This document shows positions 13,502 through 32,868 of a stretch of DNA of 34,515 nt, piece after piece. This DNA comes from an uncultured Anaerolineae bacterium (GTDB taxonomy: Bacteria; Chloroflexota; Anaerolineae; Promineifilales; Promineifilaceae). The position numbers were made by a program, and so were the translations under genes. Position 1 is the stretch's first letter. Every line of letters starts with the position of its first letter. Below the pieces are notes generated by a model. That model worked only from the letters and a program-made list of their open reading frames with translations. It did not search any database and was not told the DNA's origin. Location of the stretch: the NCBI GenBank assembly GCA_937949915.1, contig CALECP010000139.1, positions 1-34,515 of the forward strand. Reading direction: 5' to 3'.

Positions 13502-13811
13502 AATCTTAGCATGTAATCATATCTAATTTTCCCCCTCACAGCATTTATTGAATAATTGCGCTAAAATGAAAATGCGATACAGAATTTGAAGGCTCTTTTG
13601 GATTTCGCGTGGTTTCCCTCCCCTAACCTCTCCCCCCTTCGGACTGAGGGGGGGAATGTCAACACATGAATCCCCAAAGAACCCAATGAGATTAAACCGA
13701 CAAGATACACGGTGTACGGCCGACTGATATACTGATAACCCCATACTCTTTGGCAATTAGTTGCCCCCCGTGACCGGTAACGGGATAATAGGTGGCACGG
13801 AGAAAAACAAC
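13502..13811. other. Gene-free stretch between rsmG and glpK
   Basis: About 310 bases divergently flanked by rsmG and glpK. The short ORFs on both strands look like chance. A C-rich block at 13617-13660 (CCCTCCCCTAACC, then GGACTGAGGGGGGG) can fold back on itself and has a relative after glpD at 17176. TATACT near 13727 could be part of a glpK promoter, but no matching -35 is visible. Confidence 0.4.
13617..13656. repeat. C-rich foldback repeat, copy 1
   Basis: CCCTCCCCTAACCTC followed by CCTTCGGACTGAGGGGGGG, an imperfect foldback. A relative, CCCTCCCCTAGCCTGCCCCGAAAGGAGGGGA, follows glpD at 17176. Both lie in intergenic DNA. Confidence 0.4.
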
Positions 13812-15305
13812 ATGAATCAATATATCGCCTCGATTGATCAAGGAACAACCAGCACGCGCTGTATGATTTTTAACCATGCAGGAGAAGCGGTCGGCCGACA
13901 CCAGCTAGAACACACACAAATTTACCCTCAGCCCGGTTGGGTGGAACATGACCCGCTTGAGATTTGGGCGCGTACCGAGGATGTGATCCGGGGTGCGCTG
14001 GCTGATGCAAAATTGACCGGGCAGCACATCGCGGCCGTAGGCATCACCAATCAGCGCGAGACAACGGTGGTGTGGGACAAAAACACCGGACAGCCGTTGC
14101 ACAATGCGGTGGTGTGGATGGATACGCGCACGGCCGCATTGGTGACAGAAATGAAGGAAAAGCACGGGGGGCAAGATGCGTTCCGGCCGCAAACCGGGCT
14201 GCCACTGGCGACCTATTTTGCAGGGCTAAAGTTGCGCTGGCTGCTCGATCATGTTCCGGCCGTCCAAGAAGCGGCCGACGCTGGCACCGCCCTCTTTGGC
14301 ACAATCGACACGTGGCTGATATGGAAGCTGACTGGGCAACACATCACCGACGTGACCAACGCCTCGCGCACGATGCTGATGAACATCGAAACGTTGCAGT
14401 GGGATGCAGAGATGTGCGCGGCGTTTGGTATTCCAATGGCGATGTTGCCCGTCATCAAATCATCGGCCGAGATTTACGGCCGTACCAGCGCAGACGGCGC
14501 ATTTGGGGCAGCTATCCCGGTCGCGGGCAATTTGGGCGATCAACATGCGGCTACCGTCGGTCAAGCCTGCTTCTCCCCCGGCGAAGCAAAAAACACCTAC
14601 GGCACCGGCTGCTTTATGATTTTGAATACGGGACATGAGGTGAAACAGTCGAACAATGGGCTGCTCACAACAGTCGCCTACAAGTTTGGGGATGCTCCGG
14701 CCGTGTACGCGCTCGAAGGCTCGATTGCGATTACGGGCGCACTGATCCAATGGCTACGCGACAACCTCAATATCATCGACTCTGCCCCCGAAGTCGAAAC
14801 ATTGGCCGCCACAGTCGATGACAATGGCGGCGCATATTTTGTACCCGCATTTAGCGGTCTGTACGCCCCCTACTGGCGGGACGATGCGCGAGGTGTAATC
14901 GTCGGGCTGACGCGCTACATCACCAAAGCGCACATCGCCCGGGCTGCCCTGGAAGCGACGGCGTACCAAACCCGCGAGGTGCTAGACGCGATGAATGCAG
15001 ACAGCGGCATTCCGTTAACAGCACTAAAAATCGACGGCGGCATGGTGGGCAATGAGTTGCTGATGCAGTTTCAGGCGGACGTGCTGGGCGTGGATGTGGT
15101 ACGGCCGAAAGTGAGCGAAACAACCGCGCTGGGGGCTGCCTACGCGGCCGGGCTAGCCGTCGGCTACTGGCAAAACACAGACGAGATGCGCGCCAATTGG
15201 GGCGAAGACAAACGCTGGTCGCCCGACCCAGACAGCGATGCCAGCACAGAAAAGTATCGTCTCTGGAAAAAAGCGGTGACGAAAGCGTTTGATTGGGAGG
15301 AATAA
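13812..15305 (+). CDS. glpK: Glycerol kinase
   Basis: Phosphorylates glycerol to sn-glycerol 3-phosphate with ATP. FGGY-family kinase: [17 protein letters not shown] at the N-terminus (phosphate-1 loop), [55 protein letters not shown], and late [21 protein letters not shown]. The track start at 13761 adds 17 unlikely residues; ATG 13812 gives [11 protein letters not shown], the usual beginning, with GGAG about eleven bases upstream. 497 residues, a normal length. Followed by glpD across a gap that is entirely one of the leader repeat elements. Confidence 0.97.
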
Positions 15306-15446
15306 GTTGAAAGTTGGAAAGTTGAAAGTAAAGATGATGCAGATCGTTTTTTGTTTTTCATATTTTGATGATGTGGCTGTCGCAGATCGCTATCAAATGT
15401 TGCGATGCACCACTCATCACTCGTCGTTCGTAACTCGTCACTAAAA
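15306..15446 (+). repeat. Leader repeat element, copy 4 (5' of glpD)
   Basis: Fills the glpK-glpD gap. Read in the gene direction it starts with a GTTGAAAG-type array, continues with the shared core (AAAGATGATGCAGATCG, TTTTTCATATTTTGATGATG, TGGCTGTC) and ends with CACTCATCACTCGTCGTTCGTAACTCGTCACT, stopping four bases before ATG. The core aligns base by base with the copies before the aminotransferase and gatA. Unlike those, its 5' arm is not complementary to its 3' arm. No Shine-Dalgarno sequence lies between it and the glpD start. Confidence 0.7.
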
Positions 15447-15449
15447 AAC

Positions 15450-17135
15450 ATGGATAGACAACAAATTCTTAACCAACTTCAAGAAAACCAGACCGTGTCA
15501 GTGCTGATCATCGGCGGCGGCATCAATGGGCTGGGAACGTTCCGTGATTTGGCTTTGCAGGGGGTCGATGTGCTGCTGGTGGAGAAAAATGATTTTTGCT
15601 CCGGCGCAAGTGCCGCATCGTCCCACATGGTGCATGGCGGCGTTCGTTATTTAGAAAATGGCGAATTTCGGCTGGTGCGCGAGGCGGTGCATGAGCGCAA
15701 TCGCTTGCTCAAAAACGCCCCCCACTATGTCACACCATTGCCGACCACGATTCCGCTTTACAAGCTGTTTTCAGGCATTGTCAATGCGCCGTTAAAATTT
15801 TTGCGCTTGCTCGATAAACCGGGTGAACGGGGCGCGGCCGTGATCAAAATCGGCTTGATGCTGTATGACAGTTACACACGGGAGCAAGGCAAGCAATCTG
15901 TCCCCGGTCATCGGTTACGGGGCAGAGCCGCGTCACTACGCGAATTTCCACAGATGAATCCAGACATCATCGGGACAGCCACCTACTACGATGGCGCGAT
16001 GAGCAGCCCCGAACGGATCGCTGTCGAGGTGATGCGTGATGGCGAGGAAGCGAACCGAAACGCCCACGCGCTCAATTATGTGAGTGCGGTCGGTGCAGCG
16101 GCCGATACCGTCACATTACGCGATGAAGAAACAGGCGAAACATATACCGTCAAACCGAAAATCGTGATCAACGCGGCCGGGCCATGGATCGATTTTGCGA
16201 ATGACGCACTCGGCCGCAAAACACGCATGATGGCTGGCACAAAAGGGTCACACATCGTCGTTGATCACCCAGAACTCTATGCGGCCACCCGCAACAATGA
16301 GATATTTTTTGAGAATAAAGACGGCCGGATCGTGCTGGTCTATCCATTGGCTGGCAAAGTGATCATCGGCACAACAGACACGCCGATCAGCAATCCATCG
16401 GAAGCGCGTTGCACCGATGAAGAAGTCGCCTATTTCTTTGAGTTTACGAAGCATGTTTTTCCAGCCATCCAGCTCAAAGAGAGCGATATTGTGTATCGTT
16501 TTTCCGGTGTACGGCCGTTGCCGCGCACCGATGCCAAGACGGCCGGGCAGATCACACGCGATCACAAAAACGAGCTTGTGCCACCGGGGAACGGGATCGA
16601 TTTTCCCACCTACAATTTGGTCGGGGGCAAATGGACATCGTTTCGGGCATTTTCGGAACAGGTGACGGACACGGTGCTGGCAAAGCTCGGCAAGGCACGA
16701 GTACAAAGCACGGCCGACCGTGCCATCGGCGGCGGCCGCGCATACCCGGCCGACAAAAAGCAGTGGGCAAACGATCATGCGGCGGCCGTGGGGCTACCTC
16801 CGGCGCGGCTCGAAATGTTACTAGAGCGTTACGGAACGCTGGCATTGCCAATGGGCGCGTTTATCGTGTCCGAAGCAGACAGTGCGCTCGAATCGCTGCC
16901 CGATTACAGCGTGCGCGAATTGCAATATCTGGTCGAAAAAGAGCAGGTGCGTCGCATCGGCGATTTGCTGCAACGACGCTCTTTGCTAGCGATGACCGGT
17001 CAATTATCAGCAGTGCTGGTGATGGAAGTGGCCGATATTATCGGCGATGTACTGGGCTGGGATAGCGACCGCAAAGAAACAGAAATCGACCGGTTTGCGG
17101 CCGATATTTTGGATAAACATGGCGTGATACTTTAG
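15450..17135 (+). CDS. glpD: Aerobic-type glycerol-3-phosphate dehydrogenase (FAD)
   Basis: Membrane-associated flavoenzyme oxidising glycerol 3-phosphate to dihydroxyacetone phosphate and passing electrons to quinone. The FAD-binding motif VLIIGGGINGLGTFRDLALQG lies near residue 20, followed by DFCSGASAASSHMVHGGVRYLE, KIVINAAGPW and GTTDTPISNPSEARCTDEEV. A C-terminal helical domain (SDSALESLPDYSVRELQYLV-like region) completes about 561 residues. ATG 15450 is chosen; the track start at 15405 lies inside the leader repeat. It completes the two-step glycerol pathway begun by glpK. Confidence 0.95.
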   Translation: MDRQQILNQLQENQTVSVLIIGGGINGLGTFRDLALQGVDVLLVEKNDFCSGASAASSHMVHGGVRYLENGEFRLVREAVHERNRLLKNAPHYVTPLPTTIPLYKLFSGIVNAPLKFLRLLDKPGERGAAVIKIGLMLYDSYTREQGKQSVPGHRLRGRAASLREFPQMNPDIIGTATYYDGAMSSPERIAVEVMRDGEEANRNAHALNYVSAVGAAADTVTLRDEETGETYTVKPKIVINAAGPWIDFANDALGRKTRMMAGTKGSHIVVDHPELYAATRNNEIFFENKDGRIVLVYPLAGKVIIGTTDTPISNPSEARCTDEEVAYFFEFTKHVFPAIQLKESDIVYRFSGVRPLPRTDAKTAGQITRDHKNELVPPGNGIDFPTYNLVGGKWTSFRAFSEQVTDTVLAKLGKARVQSTADRAIGGGRAYPADKKQWANDHAAAVGLPPARLEMLLERYGTLALPMGAFIVSEADSALESLPDYSVRELQYLVEKEQVRRIGDLLQRRSLLAMTGQLSAVLVMEVADIIGDVLGWDSDRKETEIDRFAADILDKHGVIL

Positions 17136-18051: not shown

Positions 18052-18062
18052 GGTTGATACAG

Positions 18063-18149
18063 GTTGGGGTTAAGAGGTTAAAAGTTAAGAGGTTAAAAAG
18101 TTGAAAGTTAGAAGGTTAGAAGGTTGAAAGTTAGAAGGTTAAGAGGTTA
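18063..18149 (-). repeat. Degenerate GTTRRAAG/CTTYYAAC heptamer array 5' of ppk2
   Basis: About twelve 7-8 base units such as GTTAAGAG, GTTAAAA, GTTGAAA and GTTAGAAG in a row. It fills the gap between the LysM gene and ppk2; the TAA stop of the LysM gene is itself part of a unit. The same unit type forms the 5' arm of the leader element before glpD, in opposite orientation relative to transcription. Confidence 0.75.
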
Positions 18150-28489: not shown

Positions 28490-29653
28490 TCATCCGTACT
28501 GGCGCATAAACGATTCCAAGCGATTGAGGGCTTCCTCGATTTTGTCGTAGGCAGTCGCATAGGCGGCACGCGCATACCCCGCCCCACTCGCCCCAAACGC
28601 ATTGCCGGGAATCATAGCCACCTCGTACTCATGCAAAAAGCGCATACAAAATTCATCGCTCGTCATGCCGGTGCGCTGGATCGACGGGAACGCATAAAAC
28701 GCCCCTTTTGGCTCGAAGCAATCCAGCCCCAGCGTATTGAACCCATCGACGATCAAACGGCGGCGGCGATCATAATCTTGGCGCATCACTTCTACATCGT
28801 CGTCTGCCACTTCGAGCGCGGTAAAGGCAGCGAATTGGGCGATTGTCGGCGCGGACATCATAATGTACTGATGCACTTTTCGCATGGCGAATAGCAGATC
28901 AGCATGGGCGCACACGTAGCCGACCCGCCAGCCTGTCATAGCATGGCTTTTGCTAAATCCGTTGAGCAAGACAGTGCGATCTTTCATCCCCGGCAGGGAC
29001 GCAAAACAGATGTGTTCGATGTCGTTGTAGATGAGACGGCCGTAAATTTCATCGGAGATCACAACCAAATCATGCTTGATCGCCAAATCAGCAATATCGA
29101 GCATTTGCTGGTACGTCAGCACCGCCCCAGTCGGATTGCACGGATAGCCAATAAAGATCGCTTTTGTTTTGGGTGTAATCGCTGCCTCAATCGTCTCGGC
29201 CGATACCGCAAACCCATCGTCCATAAACGTCGGTACATTGACCACAACCCCACCCGCAAACTCAATCGTCGCCTGGTACGCCACAAAGCACGGCTCTGGC
29301 ACGATCACCTCATCACCCGGATCGAGCAGCGCCGTCATCGTCAAATTCATCGCCTCGCTCACACCCACCGTCACCAAAATTTCGTTAGCTGGATCATAAT
29401 CGACGGCGTACAGGCGATTGAGATAGCGGCTGATCGCGTCACGCAATTCAAACGTGCCACTGTTGGACGTGTAATGGGTTTCCCCCCGCGCCAACGCCCG
29501 TTGCCCAGCCCGAATAATCGGCCGGGGCGTAACGAAATCCGGCTCGCCAATGCCCAATGAAATGACATCACGCATCTCGGCCGCGATGTCAAAAAATTTC
29601 CGTAAACCAGAAGGTGGCGTATCTGCCACCCGTTTTGAAACAAATCTATCCAT
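28490..29653 (-). CDS. Class I/II pyridoxal-phosphate aminotransferase
   Basis: Fold-type I aminotransferase, probably for aspartate, aromatic or similar amino acids. The PLP lysine lies in LLNGFSKSHAMTGWRVGYV. Other landmarks are ISLGIGEPDFVTP, HYTSNSGTFELRDAIS, YPCNPTGAVLT, VISDEIYGRLIY and late GNAFGASGAGYARAAYA. 387 residues. ATG 29653 has no Shine-Dalgarno sequence: the leader repeat ends eleven bases before it (CGTAACTAAATAAATATG). Substrate cannot be fixed from sequence. Confidence 0.92.
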   Translation of the reverse strand: MDRFVSKRVADTPPSGLRKFFDIAAEMRDVISLGIGEPDFVTPRPIIRAGQRALARGETHYTSNSGTFELRDAISRYLNRLYAVDYDPANEILVTVGVSEAMNLTMTALLDPGDEVIVPEPCFVAYQATIEFAGGVVVNVPTFMDDGFAVSAETIEAAITPKTKAIFIGYPCNPTGAVLTYQQMLDIADLAIKHDLVVISDEIYGRLIYNDIEHICFASLPGMKDRTVLLNGFSKSHAMTGWRVGYVCAHADLLFAMRKVHQYIMMSAPTIAQFAAFTALEVADDDVEVMRQDYDRRRRLIVDGFNTLGLDCFEPKGAFYAFPSIQRTGMTSDEFCMRFLHEYEVAMIPGNAFGASGAGYARAAYATAYDKIEEALNRLESFMRQYG

Positions 29654-29661
29654 ATTTATTT

Positions 29662-29790
29662 AGTTACGAGTGACGAATGACGAGTGGGGTTGTGCATATC
29701 ATTACTTGTATACACCCCCACCCAAGCCACACAATCAAAACTGAAACAACAAACACTCATCGGCATCATCTTTCACTCGTCGTTCGTCAT
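29662..29790 (-). repeat. Leader repeat element, copy 1 (5' of the aminotransferase)
   Basis: In gene direction: ATGACGAACGACGAGTGAAAGATGATGCCG, core TTTGTTGTTTCAGTTTTGATTGTGTGGCTT, then CACTCGTCATTCGTCACTCGTAACT. The 5' arm GACGAACGACGAGTG and 3' arm CACTCGTCATTCGTC are complementary, so the element can close as one large hairpin. It ends nine bases before ATG 29653. Confidence 0.8.
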
Positions 29791-29794
29791 TTTT

Positions 29795-29943
29795 AGTTAC
29801 GAGCGACGAATGACAAGTGACGAGTGGGGTTGTGCATACCATTGCTTGTACGCGCCTCTGTCAAAGCCACACAATCAAAACTGAAACAACAAACACTCAT
29901 CGGCATCATCTTTCACTCGTCGTTCGTCACTCGTTATTCGTCA
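29795..29943 (-). repeat. Leader repeat element, copy 2 (tandem, after the sugar-nucleotidyltransferase)
   Basis: Nearly identical in the core to copy 1 (AAAGATGATGCCGATGAGTGTTTGTTGTTTCAGTTTTGATTGTGTGGCT), then TTTGACAGAGGCGCG instead of TTGGGTGGGGGTG, and longer heptamer arms on both sides. It begins directly at the stop codon (TAG) of the upstream gene. Copies 1 and 2 are head-to-tail. Confidence 0.8.
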
Positions 29944-30960
29944 CTAAGCAAGATCAATCGTCGATTTATCGCCTACAAACATACCTGCGCTGTGTCCTTT
30001 CACTGTTGCCTGTTCACCGATCAACGCTTGGTCTAGCACACAATCTTCGACACTGGCACCGGGATCGATAATCGAGTTACGGATGACAGAGCCGCGAATG
30101 GTTACGTTTGCGTCGATGTGCGTGTAGGGGCCGATCACGGATGCTTCGATGTCGGCCGATTCGTGGATAAACACTGGCGGAATCACCGTAAACGCCTCAC
30201 CGTAGCCCCGTTCGAGCGCATTGGGCGTGACCCCCGTGCCATGCCCCAAAAGCTGACGATTGGAGTCCAAAATGTGTCCCGGCTTGCCCGCATCTAGCCA
30301 ATACTCAACCGGCATCGTGCGGATTTTGGCGTTGTTTTCGAGCATCACTTCATACGCATCAGCCATGTAAAACTCGCCCTTTGTCTGGCGGTTTTCTTTG
30401 ATGATCGTCTCTAGTGCGGTCAACAAATAGCGGCTGCTACGAAACCAATTGATGCCAACCGCACACTCTTTGTTGTCGGTTGTGTCAGGCTTTTCGATGA
30501 ACTGTGTCACATAGCCTGCTTCGTCTTTGACAGTTACGCCAAACGGCCGGGGGTCATCAATCGTTTTCGTCGTAAACACAGCGTCCGCATCGTCTCCGGC
30601 CGTGGCGGCAAAATCAGCATAGTTGGCACGGACAACGCCATCGCCAAACGCCACCACCACGTCGCTCTCATCTTCCAAAAACGAGCGACACAAATAGACA
30701 GCGTGTGCTTGTCCCAACGCCGTTTCTTGGAACACGTAATGCGTCTTCAAGTGGGGATAATGATGATCAATCCATTCGCGGATTTGCTCACCCCGGTAGC
30801 CCACTACGAAGATCACTTCTTCGGTCAACACATCTTGCATTTCGTCCAATAAGTGACCGATCACCGTGTTGCCAGCCACCTTCATCAACGCTTTCGGCCG
30901 ACTCCAGGTATGTGGTCTCATGCGTGTGCCATAGCCAGCAAGAAGGATAATTACTTTCAT
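29944..30960 (-). CDS. Sugar-phosphate nucleotidyltransferase with C-terminal left-handed beta-helix
   Basis: Makes a nucleotide sugar from a sugar 1-phosphate and NTP. The N-terminal Rossmann-like domain has the nucleotide signature VIILLAGYGTRMRPHTWSRPKALMKVAG, ALGQAHAVYL, VVVAFGDGVV and TQFIEKP. From about residue 255 the chain turns into hexapeptide repeats (PPVFIHESADIEASVIGPYTHIDANVTIRGSVIRNSIIDPGASVED), a left-handed beta-helix. 338 residues; similar in build to the thymidylyl- or GlmU-type enzymes, but no acetyltransferase residues can be assigned. GGAG eight bases before ATG 30960. Follows gatA by 23 bases, so probably the same transcript. Confidence 0.9.
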   Translation of the reverse strand: MKVIILLAGYGTRMRPHTWSRPKALMKVAGNTVIGHLLDEMQDVLTEEVIFVVGYRGEQIREWIDHHYPHLKTHYVFQETALGQAHAVYLCRSFLEDESDVVVAFGDGVVRANYADFAATAGDDADAVFTTKTIDDPRPFGVTVKDEAGYVTQFIEKPDTTDNKECAVGINWFRSSRYLLTALETIIKENRQTKGEFYMADAYEVMLENNAKIRTMPVEYWLDAGKPGHILDSNRQLLGHGTGVTPNALERGYGEAFTVIPPVFIHESADIEASVIGPYTHIDANVTIRGSVIRNSIIDPGASVEDCVLDQALIGEQATVKGHSAGMFVGDKSTIDLA

Positions 30961-30983: not shown

Positions 30984-32441
30984 TTACAGTTTGATATTGG
31001 GGGTTTGTTTATAAAATTGGGTCGCGCTTTCATACGCATAGGCGGCATTGAGAATCGTCGCCTCTTGCAGCGTGTCGCCGATCAATTGCAAACCGATGGG
31101 CAACCCGGCCGCATCAAACCCACATGGCACAGACAGCCCACAACTCGCACTGAGATTGAGCGAAACGGTAAAAATATCGTTCAAATACATGCTCAAAGGA
31201 TCATCTGTTTTGTCGCCGATCTTAAAGGCAGTCGTCGGTGTGGTGGGGGACGCGATCACGTCTACTTGCTCAAACGCTTTTTTGAAATCGTTTTTGATCA
31301 ATGTCCGTGCTTTTAAGGCGCGGCCGTAATACGCATCGTAATAACCAGCACTGAGCGCATACGTGCCAAGCATAATCCGCCGTTGCACTTCTTCCCCAAA
31401 CAGGGCGCGGGTCTTTTTGACAGTGCTGATCATGTCATCACCCGTCACACGGGGGCCAAAGCGCGTTCCTTCATAGCGGGCCAGATTGGCACTCGCTTCG
31501 GCCGGGGCGATCAAATAGTAGACCGGCAGCGCGTACTCGGTGTGCGGCAAACTGATCTCGACAATTTCCGCGCCCAAGTCAGCCAATTGGGCAATCGCGG
31601 CGCGTACCGCTTTTTCAGTTTCGGGATTCAATCCTTCGACAAAATACTCTTTCGGCACACCGACGCGCAACCCTTTGATGTCGCCTGTCAGCGCAGCTTC
31701 GTAATCCGGGACGGCAACGCTCAAGGAGGTGCTATCGTGGGGATCATGTCCGGCCGTTGCTTGGAAAATGGCCGTCGTATCGGCAACTGTCCGGCCGAAA
31801 CAACCCACTTGATCAAGGCTGCTGGCATACGCGATCACACCCCAGCGCGACATCCGGCCGTAGGTCGGCCGAATACCGACGACACCGCAGAACGACGCAG
31901 GCTGGCGCACACTTCCCCCTGTATCTGACCCCAGGGCGGCATAGCCCAATTGCGCCGATACGGCCGCCGCGCTACCGCCACTGCTGCCACCCGGCACCCG
32001 TGTCACATCCCAGGGATTGCTCGTCGTCATGTACGCCGAATTTTCAGTCGATGACCCCATCGCAAATTCGTCTGTGTTCGTTTTACCGAGGATGACCGCG
32101 CCCGTTTTTTTCAGTTGCTCCACCACAAACGCATCGTAAGGCGGTACAAACCCTTCAAGGATTTTGCTTCCGGCCGTGGTCTGCACCCCTTTGGTGCAAA
32201 TGATGTCTTTGACACCGACAGGCACACCCAACAGGGGCGAATCGTCTCCGGCCGCACGGCGTTTGTCGGCCGCGGCCGCATCTGCCAGCGCATTCTCAGG
32301 TGTCAGCGTCAGATAGCTCTTGACGGCCGGATCAACCGCGTCGATCCGATCCAGCACCGCCTGTGTTGCCTCCACACTCGACGTTTCACCCCGTCGTAGC
32401 GCATCCCGCAATTCCGTTAAAGTCAAATCAGTTAGTTTCAT
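30984..32441 (-). CDS. gatA: Asp-tRNA(Asn)/Glu-tRNA(Gln) amidotransferase subunit A
   Basis: Glutaminase subunit of GatCAB, which converts Glu-tRNA(Gln) or Asp-tRNA(Asn) to the amide form. Amidase signature with the Ser-cis-Ser-Lys triad: Lys in VPVGVKDIICTKG, Ser in PGGSSGGSAAAV and Ser in SDTGGSVRQPASFCG. 485 residues, the standard length. Also typical are KTNTDEFAMGSSTENSAY and PTYGRMSRWGVIAYASSLDQVG. ATG 32441 has no Shine-Dalgarno sequence; the leader repeat ends three bases before it. gatB is not in the window. Confidence 0.97.
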   Translation of the reverse strand: MKLTDLTLTELRDALRRGETSSVEATQAVLDRIDAVDPAVKSYLTLTPENALADAAAADKRRAAGDDSPLLGVPVGVKDIICTKGVQTTAGSKILEGFVPPYDAFVVEQLKKTGAVILGKTNTDEFAMGSSTENSAYMTTSNPWDVTRVPGGSSGGSAAAVSAQLGYAALGSDTGGSVRQPASFCGVVGIRPTYGRMSRWGVIAYASSLDQVGCFGRTVADTTAIFQATAGHDPHDSTSLSVAVPDYEAALTGDIKGLRVGVPKEYFVEGLNPETEKAVRAAIAQLADLGAEIVEISLPHTEYALPVYYLIAPAEASANLARYEGTRFGPRVTGDDMISTVKKTRALFGEEVQRRIMLGTYALSAGYYDAYYGRALKARTLIKNDFKKAFEQVDVIASPTTPTTAFKIGDKTDDPLSMYLNDIFTVSLNLSASCGLSVPCGFDAAGLPIGLQLIGDTLQEATILNAAYAYESATQFYKQTPNIKL

Positions 32442-32444
32442 AAT

Positions 32445-32581
32445 AGTTACGAATGACGAGTGACGAATGACGAGTGGTGCGTACCGTTACTTGTCTTCAT
32501 CTCTGTCAAAGCCACAAATTCAAAATCGAAACACCAAACGCCCTTTTGCATCATCTCTACTCGTCACTCGTCGTTTGTCAT
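32445..32581 (-). repeat. Leader repeat element, copy 3 (gatC-gatA gap)
   Basis: In gene direction it starts at the gatC stop: the TGA of gatC is the first TGA of TGACAAACGACGAGTGACGAG. Then AGAGATGATGCA, TTTGGTGTTTCGATTTTGAATTTGTGGCTTTGACAGAGATG, ACGCACCACTCGTCATTCGTCACTCGTCATTCGTAACT. It therefore occupies the whole gap, to three bases before the gatA ATG. Core and both arms align with copies 1 and 2; TTTGACAGAG is shared with copy 2. Confidence 0.8.
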
Positions 32582-32868
32582 TCATCAAGAACGGCTTGGA
32601 TCACAAATTGATTGTTTGCTTTCTGGGGCGCGTTTGCCAGCACTTCGTCCATCGTCAGCGTTGTTTCCACGACATCTGCTCGCAGCACGTTCCGCATCGT
32701 CACCGCTTGCGTCGTCGGTTCAACCCCTTCCAGGTCAAGCTGATCGAGCATGTCCGCATAATTGAGAATATCGGACAACTGCTGCTGGTACATGGCGGTT
32801 TGCGTCCCGGTCAATTCGAGTCGTGCGAGGTTAGCAATTTGTTCTACGTCGTTGCGTGTGAGAGCCAT
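32578..32868 (-). CDS. gatC: Asp-tRNA(Asn)/Glu-tRNA(Gln) amidotransferase subunit C
   Basis: Small 96-residue subunit that stabilises the GatA-GatB complex. Typical sequence ALTRNDVEQIANLARLELT, QQLSDILNYADMLDQLDLEGVEPTTQAV, NVLRADVVETTLTMDEVLANAP and FVIQAVLDE. AAGGA lies about seven bases before ATG 32868, and a promoter candidate is 30-55 bases upstream. First gene of the gatC-gatA-nucleotidyltransferase unit. The TGA stop lies at the edge of leader repeat copy 3. Confidence 0.96.
   Translation of the reverse strand: MALTRNDVEQIANLARLELTGTQTAMYQQQLSDILNYADMLDQLDLEGVEPTTQAVTMRNVLRADVVETTLTMDEVLANAPQKANNQFVIQAVLDE

Follow-up and report, generated by a model that had tools for sequence, protein, structure and literature searches.

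Heptamer-armed palindromes between the genes of an uncultured Promineifilaceae bacterium and its relatives

The nearest published parallel in position to the elements described herein is provided by the TAACTGA repeats of Beggiatoaceae, cyanobacteria and Bacteroidetes (MacGregor 2015, PMC4679880), which are likewise 7-base tandem units in spacers, lie mostly a few bases from a start codon in a setting where Shine-Dalgarno (SD) sequences are rare (approximately 10% of the repeat-containing spacers have one, compared with 25% in the genome), can run into the end of the preceding gene and show a patchy distribution. However, the TAACTGA system comprises only direct repeats of a single unit, with related heptamers being rare and with neither an inverted partner nor a conserved core, whereas the present family has arrays in inverted pairs, units that are degenerate, and a core. 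Among the intergenic heptamer tandem repeats, the present elements thus share the concentration of 7-base units in spacers, but not the TAACTGA unit or the restriction to direct repeats. Over-represented heptamers have also been reported in Xanthomonas and Nostoc (GGGAATC, GGGGAYT), where spacers keep their repeats despite changes in length and sequence (PMC4692102), and a heptamer satellite family, (GATAGRA)n, has been described in Chloroflexus (PMC6749651). These repeats and the cyanobacterial STRR resemble the present family in the 7-base period, the intergenic position and the over-representation, but they are G-rich or direct arrays in which inverted pairs are only occasional and a core is absent.

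Palindromic repeats constitute a further group for comparison. Similar to the present elements, REP/BIME sequences and the GTAG/CGTC-tagged palindromes are extragenic, frequent between co-directional genes and proposed to form RNA stem-loops, but they are 20-40 bp in length, carry an unpaired tetranucleotide tag, have arms without tandem units and are partly tied to RAYT transposases (PMC3733652). The present element does not have the build of a REP, as its length is 145 bp and CGTC is part of the repeated arm instead of a tag. MITEs possess defined terminal repeats along with target duplications, and they have a parent transposase. The present family is short, non-coding and multi-copy with inverted ends, as MITEs are, but no target-site duplication was evident at the copy junctions inspected. 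A literature search, with subscription journals mostly outside its scope, revealed no paper on tandem-heptamer-armed palindromes in this bacterial group.

Four copies in the window and their family in the genome

In the window, i.e. the whole stretch of 34,515 nucleotides analyzed in the present study, four copies with a common core and heptamer arms were observed (Table 1), at roughly the positions given in an earlier note made from the sequence alone. The heptamer pattern occurs 27 times, compared with 4.5 expected, and 27 was reached by no shuffle. The heptamer array noted at the 3' end is present, but arrays occur at both ends. The starts directly preceded by a copy, those of glpD (15450), the aminotransferase (29653) and gatA (32441), have no SD-like match (0/3), as had been stated, and the remaining copy stands in tandem behind copy 2, to which it is 90% identical over 124 nt. 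Copies 2, 3 and 4 all fold better than shuffled sequences (z -3.35, -3.92 and -2.12, respectively), and copy 1 (15306-15446) shows no advantage over them (z -0.18) because an array with an 8-base period replaces its 5' arm; the odd copy is copy 1 and not copy 4, which the earlier note had exchanged. An array of the CTTCTAAC/CTTTCAAC type, also with an 8-base period, fills a co-directional spacer at 18052-18146; this array represents a unit family other than the heptamers, and copy 1 has units related to it in place of its 5' arm.

Table 1. Elements and neighboring genes in the window
Feature	Position	Strand	Remark
glpK, glycerol kinase, upstream of copy 1	13770..15305	+	
8-base-period array (AAGTTGAAAGTTGGAAAGTTGAAAGT; also AAGTTGGAAAGTTGAAAGT) in place of the 5' arm of copy 1	15304..15329	+	
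Copy 1 in the glpK-glpD spacer, comprising the core and the 3' heptamer array	15330..15445	+	Own 5' arm missing
glpD-type glycerol-3-phosphate dehydrogenase	15450..17135	+	Best match below the model's own cut-off
PLP-dependent aminotransferase, downstream of copy 2	28490..29653	-	
Copy 2, immediately upstream of the aminotransferase start codon (ATG at 29653)	29660..29790	-	
Copy 3, tandem partner of copy 2, directly after the sugar-phosphate nucleotidyltransferase stop codon	29793..29946	-	
Sugar-1-phosphate nucleotidyltransferase family gene, upstream of copy 3	29944..30960	-	
gatA	30984..32441	-	
Copy 4, between gatC and gatA	32445..32587	-	gatC stop codon inside the first heptamer region of the copy
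gatC	32578..32868	-	

In the comparisons below, G000 is the present genome, G007 is its congener, G032 is a near-complete relative of the same family, and G038 is the congener of G032 (98% complete). The four window copies and 22 others from G000 gave a consensus of approximately 145 bp, in which an AGTGACG-type array, the core (GATGATGCAGATCG..TTTTGATT.TGT.GC..GACAGAAA..CAAGCAATGGTACGCA) and a CGTCACT-type array follow one another, with the arm unit CGT[CA][AG][CT]T being present as inverted pairs. The heptamer pattern has 239 matches in G000, compared with 1 for the reversed pattern. A sequence-profile search of this genome revealed approximately 31 copies with the full core, three half copies and approximately 20 sites with arms around other cores, all of which are lower bounds, given the 150 first-look candidates that entered the scoring and an assembly in 425 contigs. 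The half copies (L080:6240-6338, L082:6853-6958 and L100:9431-9537) consist of the 5' arm plus the beginning of the core and have no 3' arm; they end inside the core, and a start codon follows almost directly.

With genes called by a codon-pair script over 735 kb, the copies were located between genes. They usually begin right at the upstream stop codon or a few bases from it, and in many the end lies 2-7 bases short of the following start. The upstream gene often takes its stop codon from the first heptamers; since the common unit contains TGA and has a length of 7 bases, three units in tandem give a stop in every frame. Co-directional genes flank 29 of the 33 placed copies (P=0.011 compared with all spacers), and the other 4 lie between genes of opposite direction. 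The core runs with the genes in 24 of these 29 copies and against them in 5 (P=0.0005). The family is real and multi-copy, and its position is far from random; the earlier claim of one orientation relative to transcription holds for the window (4/4), but becomes a bias instead of a rule across the genome. The five reversed copies occupy the same stop/start slot as the others and were not separated by contig GC skew, which bears on the idea that the replication strand underlies the bias. The genes downstream of copies, including glpD and gatA and, from N-termini judged by eye, guaA, recR, fmt and an anti-sigma-like gene, have no apparent shared function. In named genomes, the closest glpD relatives belong to Anaerolineae/Chloroflexi assemblies and reach only 54-57% identity. 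The family core was absent from the plasmid collection and viral contigs searched. CGTCACT-type arrays were observed in five contigs listed as viral in IMG/VR (L262, L263, L264, L265 and L266).

Shine-Dalgarno sequences, arm pairing and rival explanations

The missing SD sequences, which the earlier note had pointed out, are normal in this genome. An SD match of at least 5 nt is present at only 18% of 597 G000 starts (4% in the control window), and one of at least 4 nt is present at 37% (control 18%). Next to the elements, a match of at least 4 nt was observed in 3/23 cases, which is below the genome value (P=0.01) and equal to the background (P=0.39); this is what an element that simply takes up the potential SD position would produce. 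No family copy was detected in the congener G007, where the glpD start is preceded by ..TTGACTAGATT and the gatA start by ..GGACACGGTTGAACGC, both element-free and without an SD except for a distant 4-nt AGGA before gatA. Given the low genome-wide SD frequency and these orthologues without a strong SD, the absent SD is a property of the lineage and not of the element, and the replacement of the SD by the element is not supported. In G000, G007 and G032, a TANNWT hexamer peaks 12-13 nt upstream of starts, a position that suggests partly leaderless transcripts. TATAAT-like hexamers 12-13 nt before starts, e.g. TGCTATAATCGGCCCATG, were observed at approximately 1690-1705 of L082 (C394) and 6310-6330 of L086 (C137).

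Pairing between the arms was examined by arm-swap permutation in 24 copies, in which Watson-Crick pairs accounted for 76% of positions within copies compared with 80% between them (test for an excess, P=0.999). The compensatory change on which the earlier note had staked its own reading is therefore absent, and an RNA hairpin kept by selection is not supported; the deficit within copies might perhaps reflect the instability of perfect long palindromes. In each arm, the unit positions are 80-100% conserved without covariation, and variation is limited to a few unit positions. In the core, with a mean pairwise identity of 61%, a TGATGC box is invariant in 26/26 copies (P=0.0001, an optimistic value, as the copies were gathered by similarity, which favors conserved boxes). 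Neither arm covariation nor a match to an Rfam family places the elements among structured RNA leaders or riboswitches: at the gathering score, the Rfam search over the window yielded only a tRNA, and that over the elements yielded one sub-threshold microRNA match at chance level. An intrinsic terminator appears unlikely, since A, not T, follows the hairpin in the gene direction in many copies.

These results bear on several explanations. A functional 5' leader, in which the hairpin or heptamer array would draw ribosomes, or else a regulator of translation, to starts without an SD, could account for the orientation bias of 24:5, the many copy ends 2-7 bases from a start and the slight depletion of SD sequences near copies, and it has a published parallel in the TAACTGA repeats before SD-less starts (PMC4679880). 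Of this earlier reading, the real, oriented family with non-random positions before starts survives, but the SD replacement and the selected hairpin are not supported. The majority of starts are SD-less without any element, the element-free orthologues likewise have no strong SD, the arms do not covary, five reversed copies occupy identical slots, the downstream genes have no common function, and the family is absent from the congener; a leader of this kind is unlikely, and the element is probably neither a gene-specific leader nor an SD substitute. The conservation of 80-100% per arm, together with the lack of covariation and the few variable unit positions, would also suit heptamers that serve as multimerized sites for a DNA- or RNA-binding protein, each arm being conserved alone and pairing being irrelevant. 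However, the unit changes fully between congeneric species and between the spacers of one genome, which one protein could not follow, and we consider such sites quite unlikely.

The orientation bias would likewise be explained if the core were the promoter of the downstream gene and the 3' arm an untranslated leader, and TTGACA is indeed present inside the core of many copies. Nevertheless, a second subfamily has GATCTCAAG in place of TTGACA, a good -10 hexamer at 17 nt is absent, the three half copies do not contain the TTGACA part, and most copies are located within operon-like gene rows, making a promoter very improbable. The mobilization of REP-like palindromes by a Y1 tyrosine transposase, to which the extragenic palindromes in co-directional spacers and the CGTC in the unit might point (PMC3733652), is hardly credible considering the 145 bp and the tandem-repeat arms compared with REPs of 20-40 bp, the lack of a Y1_Tnp (PF01797) match in the 98% complete G038 despite 395 heptamer-array matches, and the single short Y1_Tnp match in G000.

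Repeat-armed palindromes in related genomes

In the spacers of G000, G007 and G032, repeats at lag 7 outweigh those at all other lags from 4 to 24. Arrays of 7-9 base units were observed in 113/438 spacers of G032 (26%), 19/233 of G007 (8%) and 47/411 of G000, the last value being inflated because the contigs were mostly picked for containing copies; in shuffled spacers, the corresponding numbers were 5, 0 and 0. An inverted partner is present for a majority of the arrays, and in paired arrays the purine-rich arm tends to come first (48/53 in G032, 9/9 in G000 and 2/4 in G007). The units are diverse, including CTAGCAA, AATACGC, ACCACGC and CACTTAC in G007; the 7-base units ATTCGTC, TAATTCC, CACTGCC, CACCCGC, CTAGAAC and TTCATCC in G032; and, also in G032, the 8-base CCCCTGCT and the 9-base AATCTGTGA and ACACAGAGG. 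The loop GAAGAGC..GCTCTTC is common to four arm families of G032, and loops of the AAGAA/TTCTT type accompany the 9-base family, but not CACTGCC. At G032 sites such as L187:9028, L190:4048 and L198:16555, families of 9-base units (AATCTGTGA, AATCTGCGT) form palindromes nested in palindromes. CGTCACT arrays are patchily distributed, with 166 matches in G000 and 0 in its congener G007, and 384 and 395 matches in G032 and G038, respectively.

Turnover was followed by comparing the array spacers of G032 with orthologous G038 spacers that have matching neighbors. The unit is identical in the guaA spacer of both genomes, a decayed relic of an array persists in G038 in two spacers before nuoC-like and nuoD-like genes, and elsewhere a different unit occupies the orthologous slot (CGTCACC compared with TTCATCC); the other orthologous G038 spacers are short and array-free, and several have a plain SD. 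Spacers that are empty, relic-bearing or equipped with the same or a different unit thus indicate that elements come and go under a stable gene order. Between G000 and G007, the guaA and sigma/anti-sigma spacers contain CGTCACT arrays in one genome and CTAGCAA-type arrays in the other, but such slot reuse was observed in two or three of approximately fifteen cases, which is not above the base rate. An array-flanked spacer is shared by L217 of G038 and L195:10933 of G032, and the G038 spacer has an additional small open reading frame between its two array blocks. Across the bacterial family, palindromes of this build but with different units and loops are widespread, and they turn over between congeneric species.

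Meaning for intercistronic repeats

Herein, we propose that these dispersed, imperfect, repeat-armed palindromes are probably non-essential for the most part and tolerated in the spaces between cistrons, comparable to intergenic heptamer repeats and to hairpins of the REP type, with a generic effect at most. A cassette of core plus arms would be copied to new sites, where the unit arrays might expand, contract and change through slippage or conversion, and copies would persist only where both adjoining reading frames stay intact. If transcribed, such a copy would form a stem-loop between cistrons, and any effect of it, e.g. on RNA stability or the insulation of cistrons, would be generic. Against a neutral insert, the orientation of 24:5 and the invariant TGATGC box exceed what such an insert needs, and they would be compatible with a host function or with a site recognized by an enzyme. 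More tentatively, and with considerable doubt, the elements might constitute a class of modular intercistronic palindromes. Their loop would be kept within a genome, and their arms would be interchangeable, unrelated arrays of 7-, 8- or 9-base units, of which the purine-rich one usually leads. If this modular class is true, an undescribed process would write repeat arms around a core and rewrite them in place.

In genomes where most starts are SD-less, a missing SD beside a repeat is no evidence for a leader. Heptamer arrays between bacterial genes were previously observed in scattered lineages without an explanation. The present family ties them to hairpins, to co-directional stop/start slots and to a genome-wide core, and the sequence of the unit is replaceable while the period and layout persist. 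Spread as mobile DNA, polymerase slippage and generic intercistronic stem-loops can now be tested against one another as explanations for these arrays.
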